From Planctomycetaceae bacterium (lineage in GTDB: Bacteria; Planctomycetota; Planctomycetia; Pirellulales; Pirellulaceae): a stretch of 64,000 nucleotides of DNA. Positions 10,910-54,003 of the stretch are shown here, one piece after another. Positions within the stretch are counted from its first letter, which is position 1. Each line of letters starts with the position of its first letter. The DNA lies in contig SXOA01000174.1 in the NCBI GenBank assembly GCA_005778405.1, positions 1 to 64,000 on the forward strand, written 5' to 3'. Both the position numbers and the translations under genes were made by a program. The notes beneath the pieces are model-generated. The model was not told where the DNA came from. It did not search any database and saw only the letters and a program-made list of their open reading frames with translations.

Positions 10910-11865
10910 AATCGGTAGGGTGTATGAGCGCAGCGAAATACACGCGTCGAGCGGTGTCCATTACGCGTGCATTTCGCTGCGCTCATGCACCCTACTTGTT
11001 TTGTGCCTTTTTGTGTCTTTCGTGGCCATCCCCGCCCCTGGTTTTTGGTCAAGCTTCAGCACCCAGTCGCCTCACCACCGATGGCCATTTCAAACAGCGG
11101 CCAGTCTGGTCGCCCGATGGGAAGTCGCTGCTCTTTACCCGGCATCAGGGGGCGACGATCTTCCTCTTTGTCCTCACTACCGAGAACAAGACCGAACGCC
11201 GGCTGACGGCCAACACTTATCCAGAGTTCGACGCGGTCTATTCCCCCGATGGGAAGCGGATTGCCTTTTCGTACGACAAGGCTTCCCCCAACCAGGGAGA
11301 CATCGACGTTAATAGTTGCCTGACCGATGGAACGGACATCAAGGTAGTGGCCGGCACCGAAGGGAAGCTCTCGCACGAAGAGTGGCCGAGTTGGTCCCCC
11401 GACGGCCAGTGGATCGCGTACTCCTGCACGAAGCACGACAACCAGGAAATTTACATCGCCAAAGCGGATGGCAGCGAAAAGAAGCGGCTCACCACCGACC
11501 CAGCTCTCGATGCCCATCCAGCCTGGTCGCCGGACGGGAAGAAAATCGTCTTCGCCACCAGCCGCTGGGGAGATTTGGAACTGGCCGTGATGAACGCCGA
11601 CGGCAGCGAGCTAGTCCGATTGACCAAGAGCCCCGGCCTGGACGACTACCCCGCTTGGTCGCCGGACGGCAAGCGGCTGGCCTTCACCAGCAACCGGGAC
11701 GGCAGTCTGGAAATCTACACCATCGACCCCGATGGCCAGAACCCACGCAACGAAACACAGAGCCCCGCCATCGACAACTTCGCCTCCTGGACGAAAGATG
11801 GCCGGCTGACGTTCGTCTCCAATCGCGAGAATGGGTTTGATGTGTACGTCGCGCCGCTGCCCTAA
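10906..11865 (+). CDS. TolB-like PD40 beta-propeller, exported
   Basis: A 319-aa product read from an ATG overlapping the DUF1501 stop (ATGA). It has six blade repeats built on WSPDGK (PVWSPDGKSL, AVYSPDGKRI, PSWSPDGQWI, PAWSPDGKKI, PAWSPDGKRL, ASWTKDGRLT), typical of TolB/PD40 propellers that act as periplasmic scaffolds. The signal region ends near VFGQA/SAP. Residues about 4-30 are encoded by a palindromic element (10915-10995), so the native start may lie downstream, for example TTG at 10996, which would leave a 20-residue hydrophobic leader. Start confidence is low; gene identity is firm. Confidence 0.85.
   Translation: MKSVGCMSAAKYTRRAVSITRAFRCAHAPYLFCAFLCLSWPSPPLVFGQASAPSRLTTDGHFKQRPVWSPDGKSLLFTRHQGATIFLFVLTTENKTERRLTANTYPEFDAVYSPDGKRIAFSYDKASPNQGDIDVNSCLTDGTDIKVVAGTEGKLSHEEWPSWSPDGQWIAYSCTKHDNQEIYIAKADGSEKKRLTTDPALDAHPAWSPDGKKIVFATSRWGDLELAVMNADGSELVRLTKSPGLDDYPAWSPDGKRLAFTSNRDGSLEIYTIDPDGQNPRNETQSPAIDNFASWTKDGRLTFVSNRENGFDVYVAPLP
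10915..10995. repeat. Paired inverted GTAG-headed hairpin element (REPIN-like)
   Basis: The left arm at 10915-10946 begins GTAGGGTGTATGAGCG and the right arm at 10964-10995 is its inverse, matching at 30 of 32 positions. Each arm can form its own hairpin: GTGTAT/ATACAC on the left, GTGCAT/ATGCAC on the right. The two differences between arms are compensatory for these stems. Both outer ends are GTAG when read inward, the head recognised by REP-specific transposases in enterobacteria. The element follows the DUF1501 stop by 5 bp and lies inside the predicted 5' coding region of the TolB-like gene. Confidence 0.8.
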
Positions 11866-14753: not shown

Positions 14754-16139
14754 TTGCCCATCTCCGTCACGTGTCCTCAGTGCAGCACCACGCTCAAGGT
14801 CAAGGATGAGCTGGCGGGAAAACGCGGCAAGTGCCCCAAGTGCCAGGGAGCCGTGCAGATACCCGCGGCGAGCGCCGCGGAGACGAAGCCCGCACCCCCA
14901 TTCGCGCCACAACCTGCGAAAAAGACTTCACTATCGGCGGAAGAGCGGCGAGCGAGGGTTCTCGGCCTCCTTTCCGGCCCGATGGAAAAACTGTCGGCCC
15001 CATTTTCCTTCCGCTTGCGGATGTTCATGGCGGCGACGGCGACTTGCCTGTTGCCGGCGCTCTACGCTGTGCTGGTGACGCTGTTTCTCGGCGGCGCGGT
15101 GATGTGGTTTCTGTATGCACCTTCGATCGTCGGCAGTGGCGCAGTGCTCCTCTATGGTCCGGTAGCTGTGCTGCTCATCATCGGGCTCGCGCTGCTCAAG
15201 CCGCTGATCGCTCCGCGTCCCGCGAAGGGCAAGGTCAAATCACTCGCGCGTGACAAAGCGCCGCTGCTGTTTGAATTTGTGGACAAGATTGCGGCTGCGT
15301 TGAATGCGGAAGGACCGAAGCAAATCACCGTCGATGGCAACCCGGATTTTCACGGTTCAAGGTCGCACCTGCACATCGGCCTGCCGCTCGTGGCCTGTTG
15401 CACCGTAGACCAGTTGGCGGGAATGATCGCCCATGAATGTGGCCGCCATGTCAAAGGAACCGCGTCTGGAACAGCCAGCTTTGTCCGGGGCATCAGCCAC
15501 TTCTTCTTCCGGGCCGTCAAGCAGCGCGATGCCTGGGATGAGTCGATCTATGCCGCCACAACCAGCCGCCGCTCTGTATTGGGCAAGCTGCTCTGGCCGC
15601 TTAGGATCTTGTTTTCGCTCGTCAAGATCCTGCTCTGGCCGCTAATGTACTTGGGGCAACTGTTTTCTGGATTGCTACTGCAAAAAACCGAGTTTGACGC
15701 TGACCTCTGTCAAATCCGTCTCATCGGCAGCGGTCCTTATGAAGCCACGTTCCGCACGCTGCGGGTCATCGATTTTGCCTGGAAACAGGTCCAGGCGGAT
15801 CTTGTCTTCCAGCACAAGGAAAACCAGCTTCCCGACAATCTGCCTCGGCAACTGGAGAGCGCCGTTGCCCAAATCCCGGACGAATTCCGTGCTGGCCTCG
15901 CCGTTGAGGCTGATACCACCGAAACGGCCGATTTCGCCCTCATGCCCGCCGAGAAGGACCGCCTTGCCGCCGCAATTGCCGCTGCCTCGCCTGGTATTTA
16001 TTCCTGTCCGCTCCCCGCGACAGTCCTCTTCGACGACTTCGACTCTCTCGCCAAGGACGTGACTTGGGACTACTATCTCGTAGAACTCGGCCCGCCCCTT
16101 GAACGCCGCTTCCTGCAGCCGGTCGTGTCGGGTGCATGA
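14754..16139 (+). CDS. M48 peptidase-like membrane protein with zinc ribbon and degenerate HExxH
   Basis: A 461-aa product from TTG at 14754, preceded by GGGAG at 14743-14747. The N-terminus is an MJ0042-type zinc ribbon (CPQCSTTLKVKDELAG then CPKC). Hydrophobic helices lie at about residues 95-150 and 275-305. The region 200-330 matches planctomycete M48 (HtpX/Ste24-like) proteins, but the zinc motif reads HECGRH at 227-232, so the second His of HExxH is replaced by Arg and a His sits one place later. The third ligand in EFDAD (Glu 313) is kept. It may be a pseudoprotease. Its stop codon lies in a degenerate palindromic element. Confidence 0.8.
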   Translation: MPISVTCPQCSTTLKVKDELAGKRGKCPKCQGAVQIPAASAAETKPAPPFAPQPAKKTSLSAEERRARVLGLLSGPMEKLSAPFSFRLRMFMAATATCLLPALYAVLVTLFLGGAVMWFLYAPSIVGSGAVLLYGPVAVLLIIGLALLKPLIAPRPAKGKVKSLARDKAPLLFEFVDKIAAALNAEGPKQITVDGNPDFHGSRSHLHIGLPLVACCTVDQLAGMIAHECGRHVKGTASGTASFVRGISHFFFRAVKQRDAWDESIYAATTSRRSVLGKLLWPLRILFSLVKILLWPLMYLGQLFSGLLLQKTEFDADLCQIRLIGSGPYEATFRTLRVIDFAWKQVQADLVFQHKENQLPDNLPRQLESAVAQIPDEFRAGLAVEADTTETADFALMPAEKDRLAAAIAAASPGIYSCPLPATVLFDDFDSLAKDVTWDYYLVELGPPLERRFLQPVVSGA

Positions 16140-16167
16140 TCGTCAACGAAATGCACGCGTAATCGAC
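16130..16167. repeat. Degenerate half copy of the 10915 hairpin element
   Basis: GGGTGCATGA at 16130-16139, followed after 7 nt by CGAAATGCACGCGTAAT, matches the right arm of the 10915-10995 element and its flank (CGCGTAAT-GAC), with a 1-nt indel and a few mismatches in the loop. The GTGCAT/ATGCAC stem is intact; the head is GTCG instead of GTAG. The TGA inside it is the stop codon of the M48-like gene. Confidence 0.6.
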
Positions 16168-47865: not shown

Positions 47866-48714
47866 ATGGAACGCGTCGGCATCATTGGCATTGGGCTTGT
47901 CGGCAGCGCGCTGGCGGAGCGGTTGCTGGCGGCGGGCTTTGAAGTTGCCGGATTCGACGCACAGGCTGCTCAGAATGACGCTTTGAGCAAGCTTGGCGGC
48001 CAGCCGCTGGGGAGTGCTGACGAGGTAGCGAAGCTGTGTGAGACGATTCTGCTCAGCTTGCCGACCAGCGACATCTCAGCCGTAACGATCGAGGAAATCA
48101 AGCTGCACCTGGCGGGGAAGACCATCCTGGATACCACCACTGGTCAGCCGGAGGCGATGGCGTCGCTGGGTCAGCAGCTCGCGGATATTGGCTGCGACTA
48201 TCTCGATGCCACGATCGCTGGTTCGAGCAGCCAGGTCCGAGATGGGAACGTGATTGTGATGCTTGGAGGGACGAAAGCAGCGGTATCGCGATGCGAGAAA
48301 CTGCTTACAGCGTTCGCCAAGCAATGGTTCCATCTCGGTCCATGGGGAAGCGGCGCGAGGATGAAGCTGGTTGTGAATTTGGTGCTTGGCCTGAACCGCG
48401 CGGTGCTGGCGGAAGGGCTGTCCTTCGCAAAATCAGTAGGTGTCGACCAGCGACAGGCTCTGGAAGTCCTGAAAGCTGGCCCGGCATTCTCGCGCGTTAT
48501 GGAAATTAAGGGGGAGAAGATGCTGGCTCGCGATTTCTCGCCTCAGGCGCGGCTGGCGCAGCATCACAAGGACGTGAAGTTGATTCTGGCGGAAGCAGCG
48601 CGTGCGGATGTGACGTTACCACTCTCTCAGTTGCATAACGAACTGCTGGCCAGTCTGGTTGCGGCGGGAGACGGCGACCTGGACAATAGCGCGATTCTCA
48701 AAGCGTTTGCTTAG
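47866..48714 (+). CDS. 3-hydroxyisobutyrate dehydrogenase-like oxidoreductase
   Basis: A 282-aa NAD(P)-dependent enzyme of the beta-hydroxyacid dehydrogenase group. The Rossmann motif is VGIIGIGLVGSALAERLLAAG, the substrate-binding stretch DATIAGSSSQVRDGNVIVMLG, and the catalytic Lys lies in GSGARMKLVVNLVLG. Normal family length. It is tightly linked to the FAH gene. Its stop codon TAG at 48712-48714 is part of the TTAG head of a paired hairpin element. Confidence 0.93.
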   Translation: MERVGIIGIGLVGSALAERLLAAGFEVAGFDAQAAQNDALSKLGGQPLGSADEVAKLCETILLSLPTSDISAVTIEEIKLHLAGKTILDTTTGQPEAMASLGQQLADIGCDYLDATIAGSSSQVRDGNVIVMLGGTKAAVSRCEKLLTAFAKQWFHLGPWGSGARMKLVVNLVLGLNRAVLAEGLSFAKSVGVDQRQALEVLKAGPAFSRVMEIKGEKMLARDFSPQARLAQHHKDVKLILAEAARADVTLPLSQLHNELLASLVAAGDGDLDNSAILKAFA

Positions 48715-48784
48715 CCGCCTCGTCCACGAGGCGCTGAATCGCCGCGAAGTTGAACGCATTCCCCGCGTGGACGCGGGGGGCTAA
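48711..48784. repeat. Paired inverted TTAG-headed hairpins (REPIN-like)
   Basis: Left hairpin CGCCTCGTCCACGAGGCG at 48716-48733 and right hairpin CCCCGCGTGGACGCGGGG at 48761-48778. Their outer stems differ but the cores are exact inverses (CGTCCACG at 48721-48728, CGTGGACG at 48766-48773). Outside them lie TTAG (48711-48714) and its inverse CTAA (48781-48784), so each hairpin read from its own head is TTAGCC + stem + TCCA loop. It fills the spacer between the dehydrogenase and the aldo/keto reductase. Confidence 0.75.
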
Positions 48785-48795
48785 GCTCTCCTTCC

Positions 48796-49755
48796 ATGCT
48801 CTACCGCCCTCTTGGCAAAACCGGCATTCAGGTCTCCGCAATCGCCTTCGGCGCGGGGCCCGTGGCGGAATTGATGACGAACGCGGGGCGGTTTGAGGAC
48901 CAGTGCAAAACTCTGCAACGGGCTGCCGAGCTTGGCATCAATTGGATTGATACGGCGGCGACCTATGGCGACGGCCGTTCGGAGGAATCGCTGGGTTGCG
49001 TTTTGCAGGCACTCGATCTGCGGACCAAGATGCATGTGGCGACGAAGGTTCGCGTTCCGCCGGAGGCGATTGGCGACATACCCGGTTACATCCACAAATC
49101 CGTCGGTGCCAGCCTTGGCCGGCTGCGGCTGCCGAAGGTGACGCTGCTGCAACTGCACAATTCGATCACCGCGGAGCGAGGCGCTCAGCCGACTTCGCTG
49201 ACTCCGGAGGACGTGCTCGGACGCGGTGGCGTGCTGACGGCATTCAATAAACTGAAGTCAGCCGGCGCGGTGGAGCACTTTGGTCTGACCGGACTTGGAG
49301 AGCCGGCCGCGCTAATGGAAGTTCTTTGTAGTCACCAGTTCGAGACGGTGCAGACGCCCTACAACCTCCTCAATCCGAGTTCCGGGCGAGAGATGCCAGC
49401 GGACTTCTCAGAAGCCAATCTTGGAAACTTGCTGGCTACTTGTCGGGAATTCGGCGTTGGCGTCTTCGCCATCCGCGTCTTCGCCGGCGGCGCTTTGGCC
49501 GGACAAAAACCTAGCAGGCATACACTCACTACCAAATTCTTCCCCCTCGACCTCTTCCGCCGCGATGAAGAGCGAGTCGCTGCGCTTGCCAAGCGCCTTC
49601 CGGAAGGAATGTCCCTGCGTGAGGTTGCACTTCGCTTCGCCATCAGCCATCCTGACGTAGCCTCCGCCATCATCGGCTTTGGGTCAACGGCCGAAGTGGA
49701 AGAATCGGCGCGGCATGTGGCTAAGGGGCCGCTCAGTAGTCCGCTCACTCCGTGA
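48796..49755 (+). CDS. Aldo/keto reductase
   Basis: A 319-aa product with the TIM-barrel AKR fold: N-terminal YRPLGKTGIQVSAIAFGAGP, catalytic Asp/Tyr in WIDTAATYGDGRSEE, catalytic Lys in HVATKVRVP, and the His position in LLQLHNS. It reduces aldehydes or ketones with NADPH; substrate unknown. The last codons (SSPLTP and stop) are encoded inside a hairpin of the following palindromic element, which may have replaced the original C-terminus. Confidence 0.92.
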   Translation: MLYRPLGKTGIQVSAIAFGAGPVAELMTNAGRFEDQCKTLQRAAELGINWIDTAATYGDGRSEESLGCVLQALDLRTKMHVATKVRVPPEAIGDIPGYIHKSVGASLGRLRLPKVTLLQLHNSITAERGAQPTSLTPEDVLGRGGVLTAFNKLKSAGAVEHFGLTGLGEPAALMEVLCSHQFETVQTPYNLLNPSSGREMPADFSEANLGNLLATCREFGVGVFAIRVFAGGALAGQKPSRHTLTTKFFPLDLFRRDEERVAALAKRLPEGMSLREVALRFAISHPDVASAIIGFGSTAEVEESARHVAKGPLSSPLTP

Positions 49756-49789
49756 GCGGACATTCCTGCACACGGAGTGTGCAGGCTAC
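49736..49789. repeat. Paired inverted GTAG-headed hairpins with TCC loops (REPIN-like)
   Basis: Left hairpin GTCCGCTCAC-TCC-GTGAGCGGAC at 49739-49761 (10-bp stem); right hairpin CCTGCACAC-GGA-GTGTGCAGG at 49765-49785 (9-bp stem). GTAG lies at 49736-49739 and its inverse CTAC at 49786-49789. Read from its own GTAG, each hairpin ends in CAC-TCC-GTG, so stems vary while head and loop are conserved. The aldo/keto reductase stop (49753-49755) lies in the left stem, and the MFS start at 49794 follows 4 bp after the right head. Confidence 0.85.
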
Positions 49790-49793
49790 TTTT

Positions 49794-51161
49794 ATGAAAC
49801 CAGCCGAATTATCCCCGACAAGCCGTTACATCATCCTGGTGGCGGGCTTTCTGGGGTGGATGTTTTCCGGCGTGCAGATGTCGCTGATGAACCTCGCCTC
49901 GGGTTCCGCGACGGAAGAGTTTGTTCGTAGCGGACTGTTTGAAGGCGGCGGCTCATTCCAACTCCAGAGGCTCCTCGTCGCGCCGAGGTTTCAGTCCCCC
50001 CCTAAACCAATTGCCGTTGTTCCCGCGACGCCCGAGCAGAAGGCTCAATTCAAGCAGTTCAAGCCGCGGTGGTATGCCTTTTACAACAGCGGTTTCCTGC
50101 TCGGGGCGGCAGCCGGCGGACTGCTGTTTGGCTGGATTGCGGATCGAACGGGACGGGTGCGGGCGATGGGGGCCAGCGTCCTCTGCTATTCACTGTTCGC
50201 TGGGGCCGGGTATTTTGCGGCGACTCCCGAACAATTGCTGCTGTGCCGGTTTCTCTCCGGCATGGGGGTCGGCGGCATGTGGCCCACGGGCGTTTCGCTC
50301 GCATCCGAAGCCTGGTCCGATGTGTCCCGTCCCACTCTGGCCGGCCTGCTGGGACCCGCGGCCAATGTGGGCATCGTGCTGATGAGCGTGCTCTGCTGGT
50401 ATCAGCCGCTGGACTGGACTTCCTGGCGCTGGTGCCTGCTCGCGGGAAGCTCATCGATCATTCTAGGCGTCTTGGTTTTCCTCGCCGTGCCGGAGTCGGT
50501 TGCCTGGCTGAAGACAAAAACGGACACAAGCAAAAGCAAACCGGCGGGGGCTCTCACCAGCCTGCTTTCCCCTCCGCTGTTGCCGCTCACTCTGATTGGC
50601 ATTGCCCTGGGGACCATTCCGCTTCTCGGCGGCTGGGGAGTGACAAGCTGGCTCATTCCCTGGACAGAGGCAGTCCGCGGGGCGGAGGACCAAAGCGCCA
50701 AAGCCCTCACCGCCATCATGCGGGCCAGCGGCGGGGCGGTCGGGAGCCTGTTCGGCGGCTGGATTGCCAACCAACTCGGGCGACGGACGACGTACTTTCT
50801 CATCAGCCTCGGTTCCTTCGGCCTGAGCGAGTTCATCTTCCTGCGTCTGGACCCGAGCATGACCGGATTCTCCGCCGCCGTCTTCGCCGTCGGCTGTGTC
50901 AGCACAGTCTTCTTCGGCTGGCTCCCGCTCTATCTCCCCGAACTGTTCCCCACCCACGCCCGCGCGACCGGCTCAGGCATCTCCTTCAACTTCGGCCGCA
51001 TCCTGACGGCGGTCGGCGTCTTGGGAACCGGCACCATCACATCCTGGTTTCAAGAGGATTATGCCCGCGCCGGAGCCATCATGAGCCTGATCTACGCGGC
51101 CGGAATGCTGGTCATTTTGTTGGCTCCCGATACGACGAAGAACCGGGTGGGGAGCGAGTGA
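49794..51161 (+). CDS. MFS transporter
   Basis: A 455-aa protein with about twelve transmembrane helices. Motif A is GWIADRTGRVRAMG after helix 2 (with GLLFGW before it), and the second-half counterpart is GWIANQLGRRTTYF. A long first extracytoplasmic loop (about residues 40-95) contains KPIAVVPATPEQ. Proton-coupled sugar or organic-acid transport is typical of the SP/AAHS-like arrangement; substrate is not readable. The frame extends upstream to 49752 through the hairpin element; the ATG at 49794 begins the true sequence. Confidence 0.9.
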   Translation: MKPAELSPTSRYIILVAGFLGWMFSGVQMSLMNLASGSATEEFVRSGLFEGGGSFQLQRLLVAPRFQSPPKPIAVVPATPEQKAQFKQFKPRWYAFYNSGFLLGAAAGGLLFGWIADRTGRVRAMGASVLCYSLFAGAGYFAATPEQLLLCRFLSGMGVGGMWPTGVSLASEAWSDVSRPTLAGLLGPAANVGIVLMSVLCWYQPLDWTSWRWCLLAGSSSIILGVLVFLAVPESVAWLKTKTDTSKSKPAGALTSLLSPPLLPLTLIGIALGTIPLLGGWGVTSWLIPWTEAVRGAEDQSAKALTAIMRASGGAVGSLFGGWIANQLGRRTTYFLISLGSFGLSEFIFLRLDPSMTGFSAAVFAVGCVSTVFFGWLPLYLPELFPTHARATGSGISFNFGRILTAVGVLGTGTITSWFQEDYARAGAIMSLIYAAGMLVILLAPDTTKNRVGSE

Positions 51162-51186
51162 AAGATTTGTCAGGTTTGCGACGATG

Positions 51187-51216
51187 TTGCTTTACCGGGA
51201 CGCCAGCCGATACAAT
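51187..51216 (+). promoter_or_regulatory. Sigma-70-like promoter
   Basis: TTGCTT at 51187-51192 and TACAAT at 51211-51216 are separated by 18 bp. An AGGAG ribosome site (51223-51227) and the ATG at 51238 follow directly. It lies just after the MFS stop and would drive the secreted protein gene. Confidence 0.5.
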
Positions 51217-51237
51217 ACGAACAGGAGAAGCGATGCC

Positions 51238-51894
51238 ATGAAGCGAACGAATCTTTTGCTGGTGGGCGCATCCCTGGTGATCTCTTTCGCCATTACCATT
51301 ATCTCCTCTGCCCAGCCTCCCACCACCGTTCAGCTTCCCACCTTCAGCTTCTTCACGGTGAACACCAGCGTCTCCGTTCCGGATAGTGGCGGGACGTATC
51401 TCGGCGGCCTCTTGCGGGGACGAGATTCGAGCACCATGAGGGGTCTCGCTCCATTTCCTGGACTGGCGAACCGGGGGATTGGGAGTGAGCGGAGTTCGGG
51501 AGGCATGAGCATTCGGGCCTGGGTCCATGACTTCCGCAAACTGGACGATGCCTTGCTTGCCGAGGCCGCCGCTAAGAGGCGAGAATCCGATCCGGCGGCG
51601 CTCCGAGGGGAAACTCTAGCGGGTAGTCTGGAAAAATCATCGGCTGGCAATCCCGCTGCCGAAGCCCCACTTCTCTCCGTCGCAGATATCCGCCGCCAGA
51701 ACGAGCAGCAGGACGCGGCTCAGCGGGAGGAGGCCCTCGCATACTTCACCAAGGCCGAAGAATATCGCATTGCCGGAAAACTGGGCCTCGCCAAGCTCAA
51801 CTATCAGCGAGCGGCGGCGCGGGATGGGGGGAAGGTGAAGGAAGCGGCGCTCGTGCGGATTCGGGGGATGGAGCAAGAACAGGTAAAGAGGTAA
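51238..51894 (+). CDS. Small exported protein of a planctomycete-type family
   Basis: A 218-aa product with a signal peptide (TNLLLVGASLVISFAITI, cleavage after SSA). After it comes TTVQLPTFSFFTVNTSVSVP then DSGGTYLGG, a conserved opening in planctomycete secreted proteins of unknown role. The C-terminal third is helical and TPR-like (REEALAYFTKAEEYRIAGKL, LAKLNYQRAAARDGGKVKEA). The ATG at 51238 is chosen because AGGAG and the promoter-like sequence precede it. A purine-rich imperfect inverted repeat (51895-51953) follows the stop. Confidence 0.8.
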   Translation: MKRTNLLLVGASLVISFAITIISSAQPPTTVQLPTFSFFTVNTSVSVPDSGGTYLGGLLRGRDSSTMRGLAPFPGLANRGIGSERSSGGMSIRAWVHDFRKLDDALLAEAAAKRRESDPAALRGETLAGSLEKSSAGNPAAEAPLLSVADIRRQNEQQDAAQREEALAYFTKAEEYRIAGKLGLAKLNYQRAAARDGGKVKEAALVRIRGMEQEQVKR

Positions 51895-51953
51895 GGGGAT
51901 GATGGGATAAGGGGAAAGTTCCTTTCCCATCTTCCCGTTACCCCATCATGCCC
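51895..51953. repeat. Imperfect purine-rich inverted repeat after the stop codon
   Basis: GGGGATGATGGGATAAGGGG at 51895-51914 is matched inversely by a stretch ending CCCCATCATGCCC at 51953, about 19 of 22 positions. It begins one base after the stop of the secreted protein gene. It has no clear T-tail and could be an interspersed element or an RNA 3'-end hairpin. Confidence 0.35.
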
Positions 51954-52021
51954 TCATCTCGCCCCTCTGCTCCCCGTCTTCCTTTCACCTCGCCGCGCGG
52001 GTTCAATAGTGGCTTCTTCCC

Positions 52022-52109
52022 GTGGCGACACGCGGCACGCGTGTCAGCCGTTTTTGCTGTGCGATTCCTAATCACCATGAAGCCGACACGCGGGCCGCGT
52101 GTGGCTACG
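52022..52109. repeat. Paired inverted hairpins, GTGG/GTAG heads (REPIN-like)
   Basis: The left hairpin has GTGG at 52022-52025 and the stem GACACGCG-GCA-CGCGTGTC at 52027-52045. The right hairpin has stem ACACGCG-GGC-CGCGTGT at 52086-52102 and the inverted head CTAC at 52105-52108. It lies upstream of the Gfo/Idh/MocA gene. The 31 bp at 52079-52109 recur exactly, inverted, at 53973-54003. Confidence 0.75.
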
Positions 52110-52129
52110 CATTTTGTCGGAGAATTAAC

Positions 52130-53245
52130 ATGAGCACCAAGAAAGTCAACGTCGCGATGGTCGGGCTCGGGTTCGGAGCGGAGTTCATTCCTATCTATCA
52201 GCGGCACCCGAATGCCAACGTCTACGCCATCTGCCAGCGAAACATGGAGAAGATGAACACGGTCGGCGACCGATTCAAAATCGAGAAGCGGTACACGAAG
52301 TTCGAGGACGTGCTCAAGGATCCGGGCGTCGACTTCGTGCATATCAACTCACCGATTCCGGACCATGCCTGGATGAGCATGGAGGCCCTCAAAGCGGGGA
52401 AGCACGTGATGTGTACCGTGCCGATGGCGACGACCGTCGAGGATTGCCAGAAAATCTGCGAGTTGGTGAAGCAGACGGGCCTTAAATATATGATGGCCGA
52501 GACTGTGGTCTACAGCCGCGAGTTTCTGTTCATCAAGGAGCTGTATCAGAAGGGGGAACTCGGAAAAATCCAGCACTTGGCCGCTTCGCACCCGCAGGAC
52601 ATGGACGGCTGGCCGGATTACTGGGAGCGGATGATCCCGATGCACTATGCCACGCATGTCGTCAGCCCGTGCCTCGGCCTCCTCAACGGACGGGCCGACT
52701 ACGTGAGCTGTTTTGGCAGCGGGACGGTGCGGGAGGATATCGCCAAGAAGTCGGGCAACAAGTTCGCCGTCGAGTCGTGCCACATCAAAATCAAGGACAG
52801 CGATGTCTCCTGTCACATCTGGCGGTTCCTGTACGACGTCGCCCGGCAGTACCGCGAGAGCTTCGACGTCTACGGCACCAAGAAGAGCTTTGAATGGACG
52901 CTTGTCGAAGGTGAGCCTCATGTGCTCCACACCGCCAAGAAGCCGGAGCATGAAATCGCCTCCAAGATCGAAGTCCCCGACTTCGCCCATCTGCTGCCCG
53001 AGCCGATCCGGATGTTCACGAAGACGATCCAGGACGCGGACCACCTTTCGTTCATTCAAGGTGGCGGCCACGGCGGCTCACATCCCCACCTTGTCAACGA
53101 ATTCGTTTCCGCCCTCAGCGCCGGCCGCGACCCCTGGCCGAACGCCACCCTCTCCGCCAACTGGACCTGCGTCGGCATCCTGGCTCATCAGTCCGCCCTC
53201 AAGGGGGGCGAAATCGTCCGGCTACCGGAGTTTACGCTTACTTAG
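52130..53245 (+). CDS. Gfo/Idh/MocA family oxidoreductase
   Basis: A 371-aa NAD(P)-dependent sugar- or inositol-type dehydrogenase. The Rossmann start is VNVAMVGLGFGAEFIPIYQ; the family signature AGKHVMCTVPMATTVEDCQ holds the conserved Pro-Met variation of EKP, and the substrate domain includes QHLAASHPQDMDGWPDYW. The EKP motif, usual for the catalytic Lys, reads TVPMA here, so Lys is missing from that position, which is unusual and may mean a different substrate or activity. The ATG at 52130 is the first start after the hairpin element. Confidence 0.88.
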   Translation: MSTKKVNVAMVGLGFGAEFIPIYQRHPNANVYAICQRNMEKMNTVGDRFKIEKRYTKFEDVLKDPGVDFVHINSPIPDHAWMSMEALKAGKHVMCTVPMATTVEDCQKICELVKQTGLKYMMAETVVYSREFLFIKELYQKGELGKIQHLAASHPQDMDGWPDYWERMIPMHYATHVVSPCLGLLNGRADYVSCFGSGTVREDIAKKSGNKFAVESCHIKIKDSDVSCHIWRFLYDVARQYRESFDVYGTKKSFEWTLVEGEPHVLHTAKKPEHEIASKIEVPDFAHLLPEPIRMFTKTIQDADHLSFIQGGGHGGSHPHLVNEFVSALSAGRDPWPNATLSANWTCVGILAHQSALKGGEIVRLPEFTLT

Positions 53246-53266
53246 ACTCGCATCGAAAGAACTACC

Positions 53267-53848
53267 ATGTCGCTCCCCGTCCGCATTCTCGTTGCCGGCC
53301 TTGTCGGCGGAATTCTCGTGTTCTTCATGGGGGCCTTTGAGCACATGGCGCTCGACTGGGGGGGCAGAACGATTTCCCGCATCCCGCGGGACGCGACATT
53401 TCGGGAGCACGTCCAAGAGCAGAGCCTCCCTCCCGCGATCTACATGTTTCCCGAAATGCCCAAAGAGGGAAGCAACGCGGAAACAAAGCGGTTTGGCGAG
53501 CAATGGAAAGCCGGACCAAGCGGCCTGCTGATCATCGCACCGCCAGGGGAAGACGTGATGCCTCCTAAGACGCTTATCCTGGAAGCTCTCAGCAACATCA
53601 TCGCCGCTCTGATCGCCGCCTGGATTGTCTCGCTGATCTCGGCGGACAAGCCGTTCCTTTGGCGTTGGAAGGTGGTCGTGCTAATGGCCATCTTCGCCTG
53701 GGTTTCTCTCGTCGCCTCTTATGGCATTTGGTACCACTTTCCCTGGCCGTTCATTCGGGACGATCTGCTCTGCACGATTCTGGAATGGTCCGTCGGCGGT
53801 GCGGCGATTGCGGGGCTTGTGCCTGGCGGAACTAAAGACAATGCGTAA
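53267..53848 (+). CDS. Hypothetical membrane protein, four hydrophobic segments
   Basis: A 193-aa product. The first helix at about residues 5-24 (RILVAGLVGGILVFFMGAFE) is followed by a 75-residue soluble loop containing PPAIYMFPEMPKEG, then helices at about 107-128, 137-158 and 173-190. It begins 21 bp after the Gfo/Idh/MocA gene and is probably co-transcribed. No family recognised; similar proteins are found in planctomycetes with a conserved signal-like first helix. Confidence 0.78.
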   Translation: MSLPVRILVAGLVGGILVFFMGAFEHMALDWGGRTISRIPRDATFREHVQEQSLPPAIYMFPEMPKEGSNAETKRFGEQWKAGPSGLLIIAPPGEDVMPPKTLILEALSNIIAALIAAWIVSLISADKPFLWRWKVVVLMAIFAWVSLVASYGIWYHFPWPFIRDDLLCTILEWSVGGAAIAGLVPGGTKDNA

Positions 53849-53859
53849 CAGCAGGATCG

Positions 53860-53919
53860 TGGGGTAGGCTTCCAGCCTGCCACGAACTGGCTTGCAAGGC
53901 AGGCTGGAAGCCTACCCCA
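53860..53919. repeat. Perfect 22-bp inverted repeat with GTAG heads
   Basis: Arms at 53860-53881 (TGGGGTAGGCTTCCAGCCTG...) and 53898-53919 are exact inverses with a 16-nt loop. GTAG lies at 53864-53867 and its inverse CTAC at 53912-53915. Within each arm AGGCT-TCC-AGCCT forms a short hairpin with the same TCC loop seen in the 49736 and 48711 elements. It lies 11 bp after the membrane protein stop. Confidence 0.8.
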
Positions 53920-53963
53920 TAAAAAATCGCCCCGGACAAGTCAGATCGACTGATCCGGGGCGA
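53920..53963 (-). terminator. Rho-independent terminator for the BBP7 gene
   Basis: On the minus strand TCGCCCCGGA (53963-53954) pairs with TCCGGGGCGA (53936-53927) and runs into TTTTTT (53926-53921). It lies 56 bp downstream of the BBP7 stop at 54020. The stem is GC-rich with a 17-nt loop. Confidence 0.75.
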
Positions 53964-53972
53964 GTGAAAACT

Positions 53973-54003
53973 CGTAGCCACACGCGGCCCGCGTGTCGGC
54001 TTC
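53973..54003. repeat. Single GTAG-headed hairpin, inverted 31-bp copy of 52079-52109
   Basis: GTAG at 53974-53977 precedes ACACGCG-GCC-CGCGTGT. All 31 bp are the exact inverse of 52079-52109. It lies between the terminator and the BBP7 stop. Confidence 0.8.

Follow-up and report, generated by a model that had tools for sequence, protein, structure and literature searches.

Introduction

The question raised by the present locus is what produced the hairpins that lie scattered over it, each preceded by GTAG or a similar tetranucleotide and most of them arranged as inverted pairs, and by what means they spread. The stretch of planctomycete DNA analysed, 64,000 nucleotides and here called the window, is contig C169 in an assembly of 6.11 Mb and 203 contigs, 91.65% complete. 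The original prediction took the hairpins for a REP or REPIN family. REP repeats have already been reported in Planctomycetes (GTAG REP super-family, REPtrons and TIRtrons; Di Nocera et al. 2013, PMC3733652). The matter bears on the recognition of cognate REPs by RAYTs, which are Y1 HUH transposases, and on how stems may change fast with heads and loops persisting; no structure is available for the RAYTs of perfect-palindrome REPs (PMC8266576).

Methods

Hairpins were defined strictly by a [GT]TAG head, a gap of 0-2 nt, at least 7 net pairs and a loop of 3-4. Hairpin statistics were taken from a 1.31-Mb sample of genome stretches and compared with dinucleotide shuffles, 200 for the window and ten for the sample. 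Family copy counts come from pattern searches of the whole genome, with reversed patterns as controls. The RAYT group represented by the genes C143 and C149 was followed through 60 genomes of the bacterial family and 298 genomes of the class, and also through 80 loci from a second collection. The first set for residue analysis consisted of 57 RAYTs that each had two or more REPs beside them. A loop-bias control with non-GTNG heads was contaminated by the same REPs in shifted frames and was left out.

Repeat families in the window

All seven places named beforehand carry hairpins as described, and in the window the strict hairpins number 6, against a shuffle mean of 0.3 and a maximum of 3, with 2 head-out pairs against 0 in all 200 shuffles. 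The larger sample gave the same picture, with 86 hairpins where the shuffles gave 1-7 and 20 head-out pairs where they gave none, and the tetranucleotides TTAG and GTAG stand before hairpins 8 and 5.6 times as often as the average tetranucleotide. The hairpins of the window are REPs and REPINs of a known kind, in several coexisting families of which one is headed by TTAG. Where a single family had been proposed, the loci sort into at least five separate and independent ones, designated A, B, C, F and G, with D, E and H found elsewhere in the genome. The arms in the window are as follows.

10915-10946, plus strand: family G, left arm, head GTAG, long imperfect hairpin
10963-10995, minus strand: family G, right arm, head GTAG
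16127-16159, plus strand: decayed single (half) REP with similarity to family G, head GTCG
48711-48733, plus strand: family C, left arm, head TTAG, loop TCCA
48761-48784, minus strand: family C, right arm, head TTAG, loop TCCA
49736-49760, plus strand: family A, left arm, head GTAG, 9-bp stem, loop TCC
49765-49789, minus strand: family A, right arm, head GTAG, 9-bp stem unlike that of the left arm, loop TCC
52022-52045, plus strand: family B, left arm, head GTGG, loop GCA
52082-52108, minus strand: family B, right arm, head GTAG, loop GCC
53859-53881, plus strand: family F, left arm, head GTGG, 8-bp stem with one T.G wobble, loop TCC
53898-53920, minus strand: family F, right arm, degenerate head ATGG, stem and loop as in the left arm (homodimer)
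53974-54000, plus strand: family B, single copy, head GTAG, loop GCC

The families are abundant in the genome. Family A, with the pattern GTAG-YCNGCWCAC-TCC-stem (locus 49736-49789), has 123 matches against 1 for the reversed pattern; family B, with CGTAGCCACACGCG-GCC-CGCGTGTCGGCTT (loci 52022-52108 and 53974-54000), has 118 against 0; family C, with CTTAGCCSCCGCG-NCCA-CGCGGSG (locus 48711-48784), has 99 against 0; and family F (locus 53859-53920) has 179 against 0. Copies thus run to tens or hundreds beyond chance for A, B, C and F, with only 9 matches for G, of which contig C94 holds six. Family F leads the repeats in both abundance and uniformity, at least 88 of its 179 matches being identical, with the T.G wobble retained.

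A one-sided, GTAG-like foot was found in A, B and G, where it is GTAG, and in F, where folding leaves GTGG unpaired; the GTAG that had been taken for the head at 53859-53920 is inside the 8-bp stem. The foot of family C is TTAG. A loop of TCC, noted beforehand as often kept between loci, is indeed found in A and F, and as TCCA in C; B has GCC or GCA, and G has another structure. The half copy placed at 16130-16167 proved to be a decayed half of family G with slightly different boundaries and a GTCG head.

Families B and C appear largely private to this genome: in 59 other genomes of the bacterial family, B gave only chance-level matches, and C gave 5 related matches, all in one genome. In that genome (G071), a relative of family C at five places has the head GTTAACC. 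Given this relative, TTAG may belong to a broader class of heads.

Pairing, stems and genomic position

Neighbouring copies were invariably oriented head-out among the places listed, in 26 of 26 cases for A, 27 of 27 for C and 12 of 12 for F; for A and C these cover 82 of 123 and 55 of 99 places, a selection leaning to paired copies. A 1.06-Mb sample held 19 head-out pairs and no head-in pair. Spacing from start to start is nearly fixed, at 30-31 in 20 of 26 A pairs and 27-28 in 24 of 27 C pairs. An inverted REP pair is also the repeated unit in Pseudomonas REPINs (Bertels and Rainey 2011, PMC3116915), from which A and C differ in that their listed dimers mostly have unlike arms (22 of 26 and 24 of 27, respectively), whereas those of F have like arms. 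Avoidance of long palindromes was considered for the unlike arms and set aside, family F being homodimeric with 179 copies; a founder effect of the copied unit is a simpler explanation.

Stems vary by compensatory changes. Among 82 copies of A, position 3 is C:G in 43, T:A in 15, A:T in 9 and G:C in 7, and position 6 is T:A in 39 and A:T in 36; in B, among 52 copies, the pairs are C:G in 34, G:C in 11 and T:A in 4. This covariation could reflect selection by a RAYT for pairing or, on a reading that we consider rather unlikely though deserving of weight, hairpin-templated correction, in which the repeats are REPs and their stems are re-paired by quasi-palindrome template switching. Template switching at hairpins is a known process, and the occurrence of all four Watson-Crick pairs at position 3 of A is what correction after a single mutation would give. 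It leaves unexplained the kept heads and loops, the head-out pairing and the linkage to RAYTs, and as it concerns stem change only, it is compatible with dispersal of REPs by RAYTs. The border of family B is sharp, with C at position -1 in 98% of copies and nearly random bases beyond.

The repeats lie preferentially at the 3' ends of genes, 53% being within 30 bp of, or over, the stop codon of a long ORF compared with 10% of random places. In the window, the gene preceding the family C repeat (47866-48714) has as its stop codon the TAG of the head at 48711, and the last codons and stop of an aldo/keto reductase gene (48796-49755) come from the family A REP at 49736, the aldo/keto reductase domain ending (residue 314) where that REP starts. 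Use of the head TAG as a stop codon is enriched only mildly (26% versus 14%), and therefore no function is claimed for it. That most of the hairpins stand just behind stop codons would also be expected if they were intrinsic terminators, or stabilised the 3' ends of mRNAs, and had evolved where genes end, resembling REPs only in being hairpins. We consider this highly improbable, since copies of one family retain their sequence, head and spacer at unrelated genes, and terminators need neither head-out dimers at near-fixed spacing nor a one-sided head. It is possible that REPs gained a terminator function later. Mobile repeats, rather than regulators, are the best reading of the hundreds of intergenic hairpins, some of which provide host genes with their stop codons. 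No empty site, in which the presence or absence of a copy could be seen, was found among the nearest genomes compared, because these belong to other genera and B and C hardly occur outside the present genome.

RAYT genes of the genome

The genome has about 13 Y1 HUH genes, including, as had been anticipated, genes of RAYT type, three of which are flanked by REPs. C94 clearly encodes a REP_Tyr_transpos protein (178 bits against a cut-off of 80), in which respect it resembles E. coli TnpAREP (group 2, structure 4er8), and it is bracketed by family G REPs. C149 has family D REPs and C143 family H REPs on both flanks; both genes have significant matches to NF047646 that lie below its cut-off and keep the motif PNHVH. 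Copies far more frequent than in shuffled sequence, a head-out pairing bias and RAYT-like genes in the genome together support the REP interpretation of the original prediction.

The unit formed by the C94 RAYT and its family G REPs (L021:9419-10436) stands between two copies, 93% identical and 879 bp apart, of a 139-nt segment of a host gene, as if it had arrived with a long duplication.

Two of the Y1 genes, C23 and C129, are of IS200 type, and IS200/IS605 ends are likewise subterminal hairpins (PMC6006769), yet it is scarcely credible that the repeats are ends or remnants (MITEs) of such insertion sequences, given that the flanks of both genes contain none of the window families, that hundreds of head-out GTAG/GTGG dimers are a RAYT signature, and that such hairpins lie on both sides of RAYTs here and in relatives.

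The preferred explanation is therefore that the repeats of the window are REPs, and REPINs in the sense of head-out REP dimers, of at least five families dispersed by RAYTs, and we hold this to be very probable. Copy number, head-out pairing, the border of B, covariation, position at 3' ends, the REP-flanked RAYTs and the same layout in relatives support it directly. Under this explanation a REP would be a short hairpin in which the unpaired tetranucleotide at the foot (GTAG, GTGG or TTAG) and the apical loop mark one strand; once that strand is single-stranded, the RAYT would recognise its foot and loop together with a stem that is well paired, cut beside the hairpin and disperse copies, which would be tolerated chiefly just downstream of genes. 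With the stem sequence barely read, stems could drift by compensatory changes, such that each lineage would come to have families of its own. The cutting chemistry is carried over by analogy from the TnpAREP proteins of E. coli, Stenotrophomonas and Marinomonas, and would be presumed similar here.

Besides the lack of an empty site among the genomes compared, two observations stand against this explanation. First is that, among the about 13 Y1 HUH genes of the 91.65% complete assembly, none is flanked by A, B, C or F. From the anatomy of the repeats we infer that these four families were spread by RAYTs that are missing from the assembly or unlinked in it, the mobiliser gene presumably lying in the missing part, having been lost or acting from a distance. 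Secondly, the TTAG head of family C is outside the published variants (GYAG, GYRG, GTRG, GTMG and GTGG; PMC3733652).

In most other respects the repeats resemble the GTAG REP super-family (PMC3733652), with which they share the foot tetranucleotide, stems of 6-9 bp, complementary changes between subfamilies, short loops, head-head dimers that are frequently heterodimers, several families per genome, a site behind genes, and RAYTs flanked by cognate REPs alongside other RAYT-like genes with long inverted repeats. They differ from it in the TTAG head, in that the assembly links no RAYT to A, B, C or F, and in that these families, so far as tests went (B and C), are specific to the present genome. 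E. coli REPs contain a conserved bulge, and their loop is not read; in comparison, A and C are without a bulge, F has one T.G wobble and G is imperfect. In assays of group 3 TnpAREP, loop and foot matter and stem sequence hardly does, provided that it is paired (Corneloup et al. 2021, PMC8266576); families A and C are likewise perfect short hairpins with a conserved loop and foot motif.

RAYTs and REPs of related genomes

The named relatives of the RAYTs of this genome are mostly from Planctomycetes and Verrucomicrobia. The group of C143 and C149 is marked by the motif xPHWxQ and the HUH motif PNHVH, and many of its members in relatives are flanked by hairpins with heads GTAG, GTGG or GTCG. 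TCC was the commonest loop in 83 of the 103 loci with at least two such hairpins, across 74 different upper stems. By this survey, the observation from the window that stems vary while head and TCC loop stay holds for the whole RAYT group, and it fits the biochemistry of group 3 TnpAREP (PMC8266576). From those enzymes the planctomycete group differs in a longer N-terminal part, which bears xPHWxQ, in its TCC loops and in the inclusion of GTCG-headed REPs. GTMG is among the REP head variants listed in PMC3733652; a literature search, limited in reach, yielded no paper joining "REP-associated tyrosine transposase" with GTCG.

The residue immediately before PHW appears to track the third base of the head, as a correlation among sequences. 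In the first set of 57 RAYTs it is Arg in 18 of 18 with GTCG heads, and with other heads it is Leu or Met in 38 and Arg in one (L164, GTGG); the aligned residue of L218 is Leu. This column has the highest mutual information with the head. In two columns the separate GTCG lineage L129 shares the residue of the main clade, and only the column before PHW sets it apart from its sisters. Among 39 further non-redundant RAYTs, Arg occurs with GTCG in 7, with GTGG in 2 and with an ambiguous head in 1, and Leu occurs with GTAG in 17, with GTGG in 11, with an ambiguous head in 1 and with GTCG in none. For both sets together, all 25 RAYTs with GTCG heads have Arg, while with other heads 66 have Leu or Met and 3 have Arg, all of these with GTGG. 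Minor exceptions were L213, with Leu and GTTG plus some GTCG heads, and L167 and L238, with Leu and one GTCG hairpin each. The Fisher values for residue against head (6e-14 and 3e-6) ignore relatedness, and the independent support for the link therefore consists of two coincident gains: in a tree of 96 RAYTs, Arg needs two changes, both in GTCG lineages, and no bootstrap tree has a single change.

The bases in front of the head suggest why its third position could vary. CA exactly four bases before the head was found for 43% of GTCG, 25% of GTAG and 20% of GTGG heads against a background of 6.4% (p = 1e-8, 5e-5 and 0.02, respectively), and under the published guide rule T2 and G4 would select the C|A site, so that base 3 of the head would be free to change. 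CG at +4 behind GTCG REPs (49%, compared with 10% for GTAG) was considered as support for the guide rule (C3G4 to CG) and dropped; it is not claimed because many GTCG REPs are homologous and the GTAG REPs lack a matching CT.

An AlphaFold model of a C143 relative has as its best solved match 4er8, the RAYT-REP complex of E. coli TnpAREP. In this model, residues 1-19, with the Arg at 18 among them, are of low confidence, and the sequence alignment to 4er8 begins after the N-terminus, so that the Arg/Leu column falls outside it. We propose tentatively, giving the idea a little less than even weight, that in the xPHWxQ RAYTs one N-terminal residue helps to read base 3 of the head, Arg going with GTCG and sometimes GTGG and Leu or Met with GTAG or GTGG, that base 3 is variable as the 5' C|A site uses only T2 and G4, and that the TTAG head of family C may represent another variant, served by a RAYT of its own.

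What looks new, then, is a RAYT group of Planctomycetes and Verrucomicrobia that keeps the TCC loop while stems turn over, and in which the residue before PHW tracks head base 3. These phyla offer dozens of natural RAYT/REP pairs with differing heads and stems, and the Arg/Leu correlation yields a one-residue prediction that is testable in vitro.

Other Y1 HUH genes

Several further Y1 genes have surroundings of other kinds. The RAYT C170 (L099:8500-9800) is over the NF047646 cut-off and has repeated units of the type GGTCGGGAGACCGGCCACAAC on both sides, with no GTAG hairpins close by. Around C9, C111 and C118a lie inverted repeats of a different sort, like the TIRYT kind of PMC3733652: these RAYT-like genes (L022:1-760, L023:1-364 and L013:8550-9320 for C111, C118 and C9) have long terminal inverted repeats, for example AAAAGGTGTCAGGAACCTT, and no REPs, and two of them are related copies at contig ends. 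Finally, the Y1 gene C66 (L025:7840-9036), which has one in-frame TAG, lies amid repeated CACCGGC...GCCGGT hairpins that are perhaps of the class 3 type of PMC6006769.
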